This document shows, piece after piece, positions 10,981-53,191 of a stretch of DNA of 64,000 nt. Origin of the DNA: Agrobacterium tumefaciens (GTDB taxonomy: Bacteria > Pseudomonadota > Alphaproteobacteria > Rhizobiales > Rhizobiaceae); assembly GCF_017726655.1 (NCBI RefSeq), contig NZ_CP072308.1, positions 1,983,501 through 2,047,500 on the forward strand, read 5' to 3'. The notes beneath the pieces were generated by a model that worked only from the letters and a program-made list of their open reading frames with translations, ran no database searches and was not told the origin of the DNA. The position numbers and the translations under genes were made by a program. Each line of letters begins with the position of its first letter. Within the stretch, counting starts at the first letter, position 1.

Positions 10981-11124
10981 ACGGCGCCTGATCACGCCGT
11001 AGTCTGATAGCTGGCTCGTCCCCCGCCGCGTCAGACCGGACAAAGGCCTTTCCCCCTCTCCGGGCCTTTGTCCTCCAATACGACCGCCATGGCCGACCCC
11101 TCCCGGCCGTGGCGGTTTTATTTT
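10981..11124 (+). terminator. Run of three hairpins, the last a strong intrinsic terminator
   Basis: Three inverted repeats follow one another: ACGGCG/CGCCGT (10981-11000), GGACAAAGGCC/GGCCTTTGTCC (11038-11073), and an 11-bp stem at 11084-11094/11105-11115 with one mismatch followed by TTTTATTTT. The last is a textbook plus-strand terminator. Together they could be the 3' end of the membrane protein transcript or a separate small RNA. I see no convincing promoter directly in front. Confidence 0.7.
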
Positions 11125-11738: not shown

Positions 11739-11771
11739 CCGGGCATGTTTCCCGCGATGCGCGATGCCCGG
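11739..11771 (+). terminator. Hairpin after the MarR gene
   Basis: CCGGGCAT (11739-11746) pairs with ATGCCCGG (11764-11771) across a 17-base loop, followed by ATGTTTTG. The stem is strong but the U-tract is weak, so termination is probable rather than certain. Confidence 0.5.
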
Positions 11772-11817
11772 ATGTTTTGTTTCTCGCCGGGTCACGACAG
11801 ACATGACAGGATCAGCG

Positions 11818-13209
11818 ATGACAGACGTTTCCCCCATTCTTTCCACCGCCGACGATAATCTCACATCCAGCCTGGAGCGGCTGTTCGAGCTGGTGCGCAT
11901 TCCCTCAATTTCCACAGACCCAGCCTACAAGGCGGAGTGCCGCAAGGCGGCCGAGTGGCTGGTAAGAACGCTTACCTCGCTCGGTTTCACGGCATCCGTG
12001 CGCGATACGGCCGGCCATCCCATGGTGGTGGCGCATCATGACGCAGCCACCGAGGACGCACCGCACGTCCTTTTCTACGGCCATTATGACGTGCAGCCGG
12101 TTGATCCGCTCGATCTCTGGGAAAACGATCCCTTCGAGCCCGCCGTCAAGGATATCGGTGCCGGCCGGCAGGTGATCACGGGGCGCGGCACGGCAGACGA
12201 CAAAGGTCAGCTGATGACCTTCGTGGAGGCATGCCGCGCCTATAAGGCGGTGAATGGCGGCCTGCCGGTGCGTGTCACCATTCTTTTCGAAGGCGAAGAG
12301 GAGTCCGGCTCGCCATCGCTCAAGCCTTTCCTCGAGGCCAATGCAGAGGAGCTGAAAGCCGATTACGCGCTGGTCTGCGATACCGGCATGTGGGACCGTG
12401 ACACACCTGCCATTGCTGCCGCGCTTCGTGGTCTCGTCGGCGAAGAGGTCGTCATCACCGCCGCCGACCGCGACCTGCATTCCGGTCTGTTTGGTGGTGC
12501 GGCTGCGAACCCGATCCACATCCTCACCGATATTCTTGCCGGCCTTCACGATGAGACCGGCCGCGTTACGCTTCCCGGCTTTTACGATGGCGTGGAAGAG
12601 ACGCCAGCCAACATCAAGGCCTCCTGGGAAACGCTGAGCCGGACCGCGGAAGCCTTTCTCGGCGAAGTCGGTCTCTCGATCCCATCAGGCGAAAAAGGTC
12701 GCTCCGTGCTGGAGCAGACCTGGGCGCGACCGACGGCCGAAGTCAACGGCATCATCGGCGGCTATACCGGCGATGGTTTCAAAACCGTGATTGCCGCGAA
12801 GGCCTCTGCCAAAGTGTCTTTCCGCCTCGTCGGCCAGCAGGACCCCGTAGCCATTCGCGAAAGCTTCCGGGCCTATGTGCGCTCGAAGATTCCCGCCGAT
12901 TGCTCGGTGGAATTTCACGAGCATGGCGGCTCTCCGGCCATTCAGCTGTCTTATGATTCGCCCGTTTTGACCAAGGCCAAGAACGCGCTTTCTGAGGAAT
13001 GGCCAAAACCGGCTGTCGTCATCGGCATGGGAGGCTCGATCCCGATCGTTGGTGATTTCCAGAAGATGCTGGGCATGGACTCCCTGCTGGTCGGCTTCGG
13101 ACTGACCGATGACCGTATTCACTCCCCGAATGAGAAATACGACCTGCAGTCCTTCCACAAGGGCATCCGCTCCTGGGTCCGCATCCTCGACGCGCTGGCT
13201 TCGAAATGA
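11818..13209 (+). CDS. M20 family metallopeptidase (dipeptidase, ArgE/DapE/CPG2 superfamily)
   Basis: This 463-residue protein has all metal-site motifs of the M20 family: GHYDVQPVD (about residues 86-94, first His and catalytic Asp), GRGTADDKGQ (bridging Asp), FEGEEESGS (catalytic Glu and ligand Glu), CDTGMWD, and a late His in DDRIHSPNEKY. A dimerisation domain is inserted in the middle. The closest functional group is the cytosolic non-specific dipeptidase/carnosinase-type branch, which cleaves dipeptides with two zinc or manganese ions. The ATG at 11818 starts the aligned region; in-frame ATGs at 11764 and 11803 are possible. The substrate is not readable from the sequence. Confidence 0.9.
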   Translation: MTDVSPILSTADDNLTSSLERLFELVRIPSISTDPAYKAECRKAAEWLVRTLTSLGFTASVRDTAGHPMVVAHHDAATEDAPHVLFYGHYDVQPVDPLDLWENDPFEPAVKDIGAGRQVITGRGTADDKGQLMTFVEACRAYKAVNGGLPVRVTILFEGEEESGSPSLKPFLEANAEELKADYALVCDTGMWDRDTPAIAAALRGLVGEEVVITAADRDLHSGLFGGAAANPIHILTDILAGLHDETGRVTLPGFYDGVEETPANIKASWETLSRTAEAFLGEVGLSIPSGEKGRSVLEQTWARPTAEVNGIIGGYTGDGFKTVIAAKASAKVSFRLVGQQDPVAIRESFRAYVRSKIPADCSVEFHEHGGSPAIQLSYDSPVLTKAKNALSEEWPKPAVVIGMGGSIPIVGDFQKMLGMDSLLVGFGLTDDRIHSPNEKYDLQSFHKGIRSWVRILDALASK

Positions 13210-13253: not shown

Positions 13254-13480
13254 ATAAAAACAAAAAGGCCGGGCGAGCCCGACCTTTCTATCCGTTTTTG
13301 CGTCAATGCCAGTACATCCGTGGTCAAAGCGTTCAAACGGTCTGATGCTCCAGAGCGCGTCGAATAACTCAACGCTGCTTTCCGGCTCAGGATCAGCTGC
13401 TTTGGTTAATCTTTGGTTAACGCAACAGCAGCGGCACTCTATAAAAGCGCCATTCCCAAGCTTCGGGCCTGGAGCACCGT
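13254..13480 (-). ncRNA. Candidate small RNA carrying a structured motif shared with 42.15 kb and ending in an intrinsic terminator
   Basis: No protein gene occupies 13210-13611. On the minus strand, TTGAAA (13511-13516) and AATATA (13488-13493), 17 bp apart, form a plausible promoter with a start near 13480. The transcript would run to the hairpin 13264-13287, followed on that strand by a U-rich tract (13254-13266). Before the terminator, CCA and TGG close a 9-nt loop CGGATGTAC (13312-13320), with an outer pairing of CCGTTT with AAACGG. The same loop and layout recur at 42150-42189. The direct repeat TTTGGTTAA (13401-13409 and 13412-13420) lies within the transcript. It could instead be part of an extended cspA 3' region, but cspA has its own terminator. 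Confidence 0.45.
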
Positions 13481-13611: not shown

Positions 13612-13821
13612 TCAGGCAGCAACGAGGTTACCTGCGGACATCTTGCCCGAGCGACGGTCCTGCATCAGCTCGTAGGAGAGCTTCTGGCCGTCGTTGAGGG
13701 CGGTCAGACCTGCACGCTCAACAGCAGAGATGTGAACGAACACGTCCTGCGAACCGTCGTCCGGCTGAATGAAGCCGTAGCCCTTGGTTGCGTTGAACCA
13801 CTTAACTGTACCAGTCGCCAT
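13612..13821 (-). CDS. cspA: Cold-shock protein (CspA family)
   Basis: This 69-residue single cold-shock domain begins [20 protein letters not shown], with RNP1 KGYGFIQ and RNP2 VFVHIS. It is an OB-fold protein that binds single-stranded RNA and melts secondary structure. The open frame extends upstream, but family members start [10 protein letters not shown] and AAGGAAA lies just before the ATG at 13821. A promoter-like TTGACT/TAGGTA pair at 13960-13988 implies a 5' leader of about 135 nt, as expected for cold-shock mRNAs. The paralogue number is unknown, so the letter in the symbol is nominal. Confidence 0.93.
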
Positions 13822-40989: not shown

Positions 40990-41970
40990 TCAGCTCAGCA
41001 GCCAGGCCCATAGCGACACGGACAGAACGCCGGTCGCTGTGGAGATGCTGATCGTGGAGGCCGCAACGCTGTGGCCGATACCGAACCGGTTGGCGATCAG
41101 CCAGGCATTTACACCCGTCGGTACCGATGAGGTGAGCACCAGCGCTGCCGTCCATTCGTGGCTGAGGCCAAGCGCATGGCCGATGATCCAGACACAGGCG
41201 GGCAACAGCAACAGTTTGAATACGGTCATGGTGACGGCGATGCCCATATTGCCGCGGATGGTATATTTCGTCAGGGCCATGCCAAGCGAGATGAGCGCTG
41301 CCGGCCCGGCCATGGACGCGACCTGATCAACCACGGTTTTGAGGATGGGCGTCAGGGGCACGCCGGAGACATTGGTCGAGAGGCCGATGGCAAGGCCGAT
41401 GACCAGCGGATTGGTCACGAGGTTGCGGCCGACCTGTTTGAAGACAGCAGCCACGCTGCGCTTTTCGCCGCCGACGGCCTTATGCGTGGCGTTTTCCATC
41501 AGGATCGTCCCTGCAATCATCATCACAGGCAGATGGATAGCGAGCAGGATTGACAGGGCAACCAGCCCCTCATCACCGACAGAACGACCGACCAACGGCA
41601 GGCCGATGAAGATATTGTTGGCGAAGGCCGATGAAATGCCGGCAATCACGGCAATGCGACCATCCTGCCTGAATACGTAACGGGTGACGATATGCCCGGC
41701 TGTCCAGGTAATGGCCACGCCGGCGAAATAGGTGATCCAGAGCAGGAAGGGCGATGCCCCGTGAAAATTCGCCTCCGCCAAGGTGCGAAAGATCAGCGTC
41801 GGTACTGCGATCTTGAACACGAAGTCGCTGAGAATATCGCCCGCATCCGCCCTGAACAATCCGGCCTTAACGGTGAGCCACCCAATCAGGATGAGAATAA
41901 AGATGGGGGCAACATTCGCGGCAACGGCAGACATGAAGGAAAAGCTTTCGCGGCTTCTGCGGGGAGACAC
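40990..41970 (-). CDS. AEC-family transporter (auxin efflux carrier-like permease)
   Basis: This 326-residue membrane protein has about ten predicted helices. It has the AEC/BART repeats, including PIFILILIGWLTVKAGLF at the start and NNIFIGLPL in helix 4. Bacterial members move organic acids such as malate, malonate or amino-acid-derived acids. The substrate is not readable here. The longest frame starts with a GTG at 41970; an ATG at 41934 is an alternative, and neither has a clear ribosome site. It is convergent with rsmC, 5 bases apart at the stops. Confidence 0.85.
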   Translation of the reverse strand: MSPRRSRESFSFMSAVAANVAPIFILILIGWLTVKAGLFRADAGDILSDFVFKIAVPTLIFRTLAEANFHGASPFLLWITYFAGVAITWTAGHIVTRYVFRQDGRIAVIAGISSAFANNIFIGLPLVGRSVGDEGLVALSILLAIHLPVMMIAGTILMENATHKAVGGEKRSVAAVFKQVGRNLVTNPLVIGLAIGLSTNVSGVPLTPILKTVVDQVASMAGPAALISLGMALTKYTIRGNMGIAVTMTVFKLLLLPACVWIIGHALGLSHEWTAALVLTSSVPTGVNAWLIANRFGIGHSVAASTISISTATGVLSVSLWAWLLS

Positions 41971-42112: not shown

Positions 42113-42190
42113 GCATAAAAGAAAAAGCGGGGTCGCCCCCGCCTTTTGTCCGTTATGGACCGCCAGTACATCCGTGGCGGAGATAACGGT
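42113..42190 (-). ncRNA. Structured RNA motif with intrinsic terminator (second copy of the 13.3 kb motif)
   Basis: Read on the minus strand, CCGTTAT (42189-42183) pairs with ATAACGG (42156-42150), and inside it CCGCCA (42180-42175) pairs with TGGCGG (42165-42160) around the 9-nt loop CGGATGTAC. An 8-base gap leads to a terminator stem GCGGGG/CCCCGC (42127-42142) and a U-rich tract to 42113. The same loop, flanking CCA/TGG pairs and terminator occur at 13.3 kb. Here the stems are longer and differ in sequence. It lies 143 bp upstream of the AEC transporter start on the same strand, so it may be a leader or a free small RNA. Confidence 0.5.
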
Positions 42191-42218
42191 CGAGCCAGAA
42201 GACCTTCATGCCTTCCAT
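42153..42218 (-). CDS. Possible 21-residue small ORF overlapping the structured RNA motif
   Basis: An ATG at 42218 opens a 21-codon frame, MEGMKVFWLDRYLRHGCTGG plus a final Pro, ending in TAA just before the terminator. GAGGAA lies 11 bases upstream, and an in-frame TGA precedes it, so the frame is closed on both sides. The related copy at 13.3 kb encodes HGCTG in one frame but has no matching stop. The shared bases are therefore better explained by RNA structure than by protein. Low confidence as a gene. Confidence 0.25.
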   Translation of the reverse strand: MEGMKVFWLDRYLRHGCTGGP

Positions 42219-42392
42219 GCCGGCAAGAGTTCCTCACCGGTGCTCTGAAGGAACAGATAGCTCACTCACGTGACGGGAAGATGACGGTTCTGGCCAGCTC
42301 CTCAAGCGGCATGGCATCCTTTGGGCTTTTCTTGCCGCGAGAAATGTTTAAGACCATCAGAAACAACGCCTCGTGCGAACCGGATAGGGCCC

Positions 42393-52642: not shown

Positions 52643-52957
52643 AATTTCCCTCTCGAAGCCAATTTTGGACACGGCAAAGCGTTGCCGATTGCAATCGCAA
52701 CCGGACGGTGATGGTTCTGTCATTCAGGTGATGCTTGGTGTTTGAGAGTTCGTGCGATCCGAATGAAAACAGATTGATTTTCGGGCACGCTTCAAGCAAC
52801 AGAAGTCGCTCCCTACGCTGAGGAGCGTAGCAACTTAAAAATATGCACTGGCATGACTTCACCCCGAAGCTTGTTATGGAGGGGGCAGAAAAGGGCGCAC
52901 GCAAGTCATTTGCGCGATACACCTTCCTCCGGACACCCCGCCCGTGGACGTTTGCGC
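52643..52957 (-). promoter_or_regulatory. nrdHIEF leader between the cobalamin aptamer and nrdH
   Basis: These 315 bases hold no credible gene; a 113-codon reading across them is not protein-like. The main structure is CTACGCT/AGCGTAG (52813-52819/52824-52830, loop CCTC on the RNA), followed by GGGAGCG that could pair with CGCTCC of the same stem. It may be the expression platform. Its distance of 170 bases from nrdH makes anti-termination or leader processing more likely than direct masking of the ribosome site. Confidence 0.5.
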
Positions 52958-53140
52958 TCAAGGCAGGTCTCCTGACTTGCGGGTCACAACATTCATTCCG
53001 GCCTTCCCGAAGCTCTCAGCCCCAGTGACTCAAATCGGAACGATGCTCGCCGCTTACAGTTGCGGGGGCAGTTTCGGCCTAGTTCCGCCTCAATGGCGTG
53101 ACGCACCGAATTCCCGTCTTAGCTCCCAACCCTTGCGAAT
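52958..53140 (-). promoter_or_regulatory. Cobalamin (adenosylcobalamin) riboswitch controlling nrdHIEF
   Basis: On the minus strand the core reads, in order: GGGAATTCGGTG, CCGAAACTGCCCCCGCAACT, GTAAGCGGCGAGC, CACTGG, CGGGAAGGCC, and GTCAGGAGACCTGCC. These are the conserved blocks of the B12-box riboswitch (P3-P6 core, L5 and the terminal CAGGAGACCTGCC). It lies directly in the transcript leading to nrdHIEF. High coenzyme B12 should shut down this B12-independent reductase. That pattern is known for bacteria that also have the B12-dependent class II enzyme NrdJ. Confidence 0.93.
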
Positions 53141-53154
53141 CGGAAGAACCTTGA

Positions 53155-53191
53155 ACACTAGATATAGTATATGAGGAAATCCTGCCGTCAA
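53155..53191 (-). promoter_or_regulatory. nrdHIEF promoter with an NrdR box over the -10 element
   Basis: On the minus strand TTGACG (53186-53191) is the -35 and the CTATAT region (53162-53167) the -10, about 18 bp apart. The 16-mer ACACTAGATATAGTAT (53155-53170) agrees at 14 of 16 positions with the NrdR box ACACwATATATwGTGT in one orientation. NrdR is a universal repressor of nrd genes that binds ATP/dATP. A second box at the usual spacing is not evident. Confidence 0.6.

Follow-up and report, generated by a model that had tools for sequence, protein, structure and literature searches.

The closest described relatives of the RNAs treated here belong to a family catalogued in Rfam as ar35 and known in S. 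meliloti as SmelB053. The text of Reinkensmeier et al. 2011 (PMC3927594) presents a family with the loop GGAUGUA and a terminator, occurring in multiple copies on several replicons, and 33 3′UTRs that resemble it, 29 of them on cold-shock genes; an interceptor role was proposed there and the function was called unclear. SmelB053 itself is placed at 577730–577873 of pSymB (PMC2873474), and its promoter is listed as RpoD and RpoH1/2 (PMC7143759). In Agrobacterium C58, an intergenic ncRNA, C1_110258F, was located at 110258–110380 by RNA-seq, Northern blotting and RACE, and the transcript of the preceding cspA (109823–110032) stops at 110098, giving a 66-nt 3′UTR ahead of this RNA (PMC3738593). 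From these sources, then, the family, its loop, its csp 3′UTR relatives and one transcript that concerns us below were already known. Our search of the literature, mainly of the main texts of open-access papers, found no later answer on ar35/SmelB053 function after 2011, and no report of the five settings, the CtrA box, the Pho-like box or the viral copies described here.

The window analysed is a stretch of 64 kb of Agrobacterium tumefaciens DNA in which a preliminary description had picked out two copies of an RNA motif. The 16-mer GCCAGTACATCCGTGG (plus strand) is indeed repeated exactly at 13308–13323 (copy A) and 42162–42177 (copy B); on the minus strand, where both places read as a hairpin loop and then a terminator, it gives the invariant core CCACGGATGTACTGGC. 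The outer arms pair as had been proposed, CCGTTT (13335–13340) with AAACGG (13292–13297) on the minus strand of copy A, and CCGTTAT with ATAACGG together with CCGCCA with TGGCGG on that of copy B. Closure of the loop by CCA/TGG has a mean pair probability of 0.89–0.92 (RNAfold, 188 unique copies), and an alternative loop register (G6–C12, G5–U13, C4–G14) was rejected at a mean probability of 0.02–0.03 in the 188 normal copies. An intrinsic terminator follows each hairpin, at 13262–13287 (−) in copy A (a shorter stem, 13266–13280, appears in the terminator listing) and at 42122–42147 (−) in copy B; the distance of 10–20 bases that had been given for it does not hold, the stems sitting closer.

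Taken alone, a repeat of 16 bases is unremarkable in a stretch of 64 kb, since the window holds ten 16-base repeat runs (~5 pairs) where ~1 chance pair is expected by hand calculation, and the significance of the motif rests on the copies outside the window. The exact 16-mer occurs five times in the same genome vs ~0.002 expected (hand calculation). Of 199 genomes sampled from the order, 47 contain the 15-mer, at 73 places (these five counted) vs three for the reversed control, and every one of the 39 genomes sampled from the genus has copies. These many copies in related genomes, together with an outer stem that covaries, uphold the suggestion of a family of RNAs whose loop is fixed while the stems vary. 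Where the core is preceded by A, stem pairs 1–3 form in 54, 53 and 47 of the 55 copies of the order sample, with 4–5 pair types each, and 73% of the cells are paired in register vs 34–38% when slid; the corresponding values in the genus sample and the own genome (n = 81) are 56% vs 28–48%. The 20 copies without this A (10 from the order, 10 from the genus and the own genome) are 42% and 55% paired, a shift of one position giving 86% and 52%, so that their covariation is unclear in the tested register, which has no advantage over its neighbours; they may use another bulge.

Departures from the standard loop were seen among the csp 3′UTR copies of one family (f35), of which six read CCACGGACGTACCGG and one CCGCGGACGTACCGG. 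In the CCACGGACGTACCGG variant (six copies) two of the three pairs of the alternative register, here G6–C12 and G5–C13, reach a probability of 0.73–0.76. Some csp 3′UTR copies of the same family carry the loop variant CGGACGUAC (L362, L396–L397, L403, L407–L409 and L411), and in several genomes they occur alongside copies with the standard loop. A degenerate pattern is not enriched by count, with 23 places in 40 chosen genomes vs 19 for the reversed control; its 20 places in f35 all follow a csp gene, 19 of them within 30 nt, and its three places outside f35 do not. In 16 genomes without the exact motif, 30 csp 3′UTRs were taken, of which 25 were readable by the pattern used; 24 of these show 5–8 mismatches, and one (L362) comes close to the motif, with only 3.

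The possibility that the motif matches a catalogued Rhizobiales RNA proved correct. Copy A scores 54.5 bits against ar35 (RF02346), above the gathering cut-off of 45, the match spanning 13258–13392. In a permissive scan the other copies of the genome score 133.3 (C2:114514), 45.8 (C1:305966), 32.8 (C2:113232) and, for copy B, 23.9 bits (E 0.5), the last two falling short of the cut-off. Both window copies possess a stem-loop with the conserved loop GGAUGUA and a terminator-like last stem-loop. The copy scoring 133.3 bits matches 577717–577874 of S. meliloti pSymB, that is, the place of SmelB053. The identification of copy A as an ar35-type RNA is firm and that of copy B is fair. Two further elements of the window match Rfam families above their cut-offs, a cobalamin riboswitch at 52945–53168 (−) and an ar7 small RNA at 10990–11121 (+).

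We pooled 215 unique copies, taken for the genus from among those listed and with those of G236 and a few others left out, and divided them into classes by sequence patterns that were drawn up after viewing examples; L200 was placed by hand in class B, and L104 and L159 in class R. Promoter boxes were scored in the 150 nt upstream against 20 dinucleotide shuffles. The five copies of the own genome fall one into each of five classes: copies A and B, a csp 3′UTR copy (C2:113232), ar35 proper (class R, C2:114514) and a prophage copy (class D, C1:305966). The csp 3′UTR is the commonest setting, with 95 of the 215 copies ≤90 nt past a csp stop codon, mostly ~20–30 nt. No TAA-N7-TTAAC was found at such copies in the genus and own genome (n = 55), nor was any box enriched at those of the genus (n = 55), where a Pho-like box of ≥10/14 occurs in three (shuffle mean 2.2). 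Class R (n = 22) has CTTG-N18–20-CTA in 18 copies (shuffles ≤3), and class D (n = 11), scanned with the EcfG consensus, has the EcfG-like GGAAC-N16–18-RTT in nine (shuffles ≤1). Outside csp 3′UTRs, the copies of the order sample (n = 28) have the CtrA box in three and CTTG-N18–20-CTA in eight (shuffles ≤1). A scan with the sigma-70 consensus gave no match at copy A or B.

Copy A lies downstream of a cspA-like cold-shock gene (13612–13821, −), the C58 counterpart of which is cspA, Atu0106, and is convergent with an M20-family peptidase gene (11764–13209, +) that we used as a synteny marker. This convergent neighbour makes the ligand-binding leader offered by the preliminary description unlikely for copy A. 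The minus-strand transcript suggested there corresponds to C1_110258F (PMC3738593), found at the orthologous place in C58 coordinates; alignment with it projects the ends of small RNA A to 13260–13383 (−). The genome at C58 coordinates has cspA at exactly 109823–110032, the motif at 110318–110332 and a CtrA box at 110220–110235. The RNA elements of this locus stand in a row along 14173–13260 (−), namely an ar14 small RNA, the cspA thermometer 5′UTR, the csp gene and the ar35-type copy A, and the same order is met in C58 coordinates as C1_109477F, C1_109596F, cspA and C1_110258F, the first of these being, by position and sequence, the ar14 RNA upstream of cspA.

The CtrA-type box GTTAACCAAAGATTAACC at 13404–13421 (−), with the box proper at 13405–13420, stands upstream of copy A and is predicted from the consensus TAA-N7-TTAAC (PMC3616915). 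Flank sequence and csp distance, and not the box, served to sort the A-loci, and all 38 have TAA-N7-TTAAC upstream (shuffles ≤1), 37 of them in the longer form TTAA-N7-TTAAC (shuffles 0), a form that has 41 strand matches in the own genome vs 13 for the reversed control. At least 118 stretches from named genomes combine box and motif, vs ~0.1 expected (hand calculation); as the scan demanded an exact box, the evidence there is the diversity of the spacer and not the box, and 47 distinct N7 spacers are present among the 83 matches listed. These are the 80 listed named loci minus two, plus L204–L208, a distance limit having dropped two of 85, both from Bartonella. Their box-to-motif distances form two groups, 49–78 and 93–108 nt. 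Of the 83 listed, 43 are followed by a convergent M20-peptidase gene, and 24 of the 35 long-distance matches among them are preceded by a csp gene, several loci being cut at their ends. Among the 80 matches listed the genera include Agrobacterium, Rhizobium, Mesorhizobium, Neorhizobium, Shinella, Pararhizobium, Aminobacter, Aliihoeflea and Bartonella. In an order-wide sample, box and motif were found together in only five of 397 genomes.

Copy A is absent beside the M20-peptidase gene in two Sinorhizobium records and one Shinella record. The chromosomal copy of S. meliloti, between cpdR1 and ilvD, which at a guess we take to be SmelC691, has no CtrA box, unlike copy A. This ar35-type copy (L536) was read in CP090106.1, a 3.7-Mb record from S. 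meliloti Ak57 that bears the label ‘plasmid pSymB’, carries polA, cpdR1 and ilvD and is chromosome-like. As the S. meliloti record has no copy A at the locus, the CtrA ChIP-seq data reported for that species (PMC4433202) are uninformative on it, and the lack of a CtrA-wired copy there may explain why that model did not reveal the wiring. The main text of the Hfq study (PMC4201532) names neither a cold-shock gene nor 110258.

With respect to the published 5′ end at 110258, the CtrA box in C58 coordinates occupies −38 to −23, the 5′ end coming 23 nt after it. C1_110258F drops from 5420 to 559 RPKM with TEX in YEP-L and measures ~180 nt on the Northern blot vs 123 nt by sequencing (PMC3738593); the drop and the longer band suggest that this 5′ end may be processed. 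The true start of RNA A may then lie upstream of the box, and CtrA could either activate or repress it. Judged from the conserved box, control of copy A by CtrA is likely.

At copy B, the Pho-like box CCGTCATCTTCCCGTCAC (42270–42287, −) agrees with 11 of the 14 bases of the Pho box consensus CTGTCAT-N4-CTGTCAT (PMC3131613), and Pho boxes are described as overlapping the −35 region (PMC3616915). Eight bases past the box there is a putative −10-like element, GCTATC (42256–42261, −), from which, together with the terminator, the ends of a predicted small RNA B are placed at 42117–42249 (−). All 21 B-loci lie between a downstream gene on the same strand (40990–41970, − in the window), which we take from its sequence to be an AEC-family permease, and a divergent gene, presumably for a sugar kinase. 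A Pho-like box of ≥10/14 occurs at all 21 (shuffles mean 1.35, maximum 5) and one of ≥11/14 at 18 (shuffles ≤1), in a class of which four loci were sorted using the Pho pattern and one by hand, with identical neighbours throughout. In 17 loci the box starts 107–118 nt ahead of the core; the other four (L091, L103, L108 and L200) have a short form, present in part of the genus, with a distance of 49 nt, and L098 is a diverged long form. Two GGCATGCC palindromes stand between the B terminator and the permease gene (42117–41970, −). No tag near the C58 place of copy B is given in the main text of PMC3738593. From the box and its recurrence, we consider control of copy B by PhoB probable.

Copies of the motif also occur in phages. 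The copy at C1:305966 is inside a prophage (C1:298500–313500), near a DNA polymerase/primase gene, and the eight prophage proteins tested, which include terminase, DNA polymerase/primase, HNH endonucleases and methyltransferases, all match PHROGs. At least 120 stretches from viral contigs (IMG/VR) contain an 18-mer form. The 80 viral loci listed comprise 33 csp 3′UTRs, 14 ar35-like copies, 15 with GGAAC-type promoters, two resembling L055 and 16 others, some apparently chance, and several are near-identical, so that these counts are not independent. Ten neighbour proteins were picked from the 45 neighbour clusters listed; nine match PHROGs, and for five of these the PHROG names a function (DNA polymerase/primase, primosomal protein, terminase, endolysin and antiterminator). 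On the viral contigs (L414–L493) one sees csp genes with the hairpin in their 3′UTR, ar35-like RNAs and RNAs behind an EcfG-like promoter; at L471 an antiterminator gene stands immediately upstream of the ar35-like RNA. A blastn search of phage isolates (50,697 records) found no match for two phage copies, one of class D and the other ar35-like; with a phage csp as query it gave two records, the alignments being confined to regions outside the hairpin.

The csp 3′UTR copies, the CtrA and Pho-like boxes and the prophage copies go beyond the preliminary description, and we lean towards the view that both window copies are sibling small RNAs of the ar35/SmelB053 type that put one loop under different regulators. 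Each sibling consists of a freely varying, covarying stem with the fixed loop CGGAUGUAC and, at once, an intrinsic terminator. This module most often forms the 3′ end of a csp mRNA and otherwise makes up free-standing genes, presumably with differing inputs: a cell-cycle input for copy A behind its CtrA box, a phosphate-starvation input for copy B behind its Pho-like box, an RpoD/RpoH-type promoter for the ar35-type gene and an EcfG-like promoter for the prophage copy. We infer that CtrA and PhoB bind at these boxes from their fit to the consensus and their conservation. A loop that stays fixed amid changing stems, promoters and neighbours points to the loop as the part under selection; it would be the working part, presumably acting in trans. 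The free RNAs might serve as decoys that titrate a factor recognising the csp 3′-end hairpin, through which several regulators would tune cold-shock mRNA levels. This decoy role, which we put forward tentatively, would explain why the loop is found both in csp 3′ ends and in free RNAs.

Its main rival is pairing through a shorter seed, in which the exposed loop would base-pair with short complementary sites in several mRNAs. Small RNAs that carry a seed typically combine a fixed loop with varying stems, and GspR and EcpR1 of S. meliloti pair via stem-loops (PMC5928217, PMC7143759), but the full 9-nt complement of the loop is not enriched, with 17 places in the genome, five of them the copies themselves, and 15 for the reversed control. 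The only site between a Shine–Dalgarno-like stretch and a start codon, at the gene for a 105-aa protein (L333), was rejected as a target, being absent from all 12 orthologues with a readable start among 17 orthologues in 20 genomes. We regard pairing of this kind as rather unlikely. A sponge for CsrA/RsmA has next to no probability: the loop region holds CANGGANGU, which resembles the CsrA consensus in sequence only, but CsrA (PF02599) is absent from all 16 motif-bearing genomes tested, for which the sponge was rejected, and the same search found PF02599 in E. coli, B. subtilis and T. maritima, three of the 14 genomes used as controls. The CsrA profile in 16 genomes and the full 9-nt complement in the genome thus yielded no partner for the loop.

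The prevalence of csp 3′UTRs among the copies, mostly ~20–30 nt after the stop codon, would also suit a purely local 3′-end element, a terminator or stability hairpin that spread with csp 3′ ends and left the free copies as relics. We hold this to be improbable, as the free-standing copies retain the loop and bear conserved boxes of their own, a discrete transcript is reported at the orthologue of copy A (PMC3738593), and a stability hairpin should have no need of an invariant loop. That copy B acts as a 5′ leader attenuating the permease gene is, if anything, less probable still: the gene follows on the same strand in all 21 loci and in the window a terminator intervenes, but the loop is equally found in copy A, in csp 3′UTRs and in prophages with no common downstream gene seen, and copy A faces a convergent gene.

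Returning to the decoy reading, CspA5 raises the translation of ctrA in S. meliloti (PMC5928217), and a decoy of csp 3′ ends made under CtrA could therefore, speculatively, close a loop. On a wider scale it is possible, though we would not press it, that the loop serves as a common regulatory element across the Hyphomicrobiales, with CtrA, PhoB, EcfG and RpoD/RpoH promoters each giving rise to a separate RNA that bears the loop of the csp 3′ ends and temperate phages, through copies that are free-standing or on phage csp genes, tapping or disturbing the circuit. The conserved CtrA and Pho-like boxes provide testable inputs for the ar35/SmelB053 family. Such wiring would tie cold-shock RNA control to the cell cycle and to phosphate in Agrobacterium, the CtrA link would extend to Rhizobium and Mesorhizobium, and the phage copies hint at a function worth taking over.

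In comparison with described systems, copies A and B share with ar35/SmelB053 (RF02346, smrB35) the loop GGAUGUA, the terminator, the multi-copy habit and the csp 3′UTR relatives, and differ from it in their 5′ parts and promoter boxes, copy B also lying under the cut-off. SmelC691/sra57 of S. meliloti is an 83-nt relative in the same family in which the first stem-loop is missing (PMC3927594, PMC2873474). C1_110258F has the place of copy A in the genome, with the motif inside the RNA and cspA upstream, and is listed in PMC3738593 as intergenic, with neither family nor CtrA box assigned. The GspR/CspA5/CtrA loop of S. meliloti likewise joins CtrA to a small RNA and a cold-shock protein, but GspR is SmelC775, of a different RNA family, and base-pairs with the ctrA and cspA5 mRNAs (PMC5928217). 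What we describe is a known family with a proposed new wiring.
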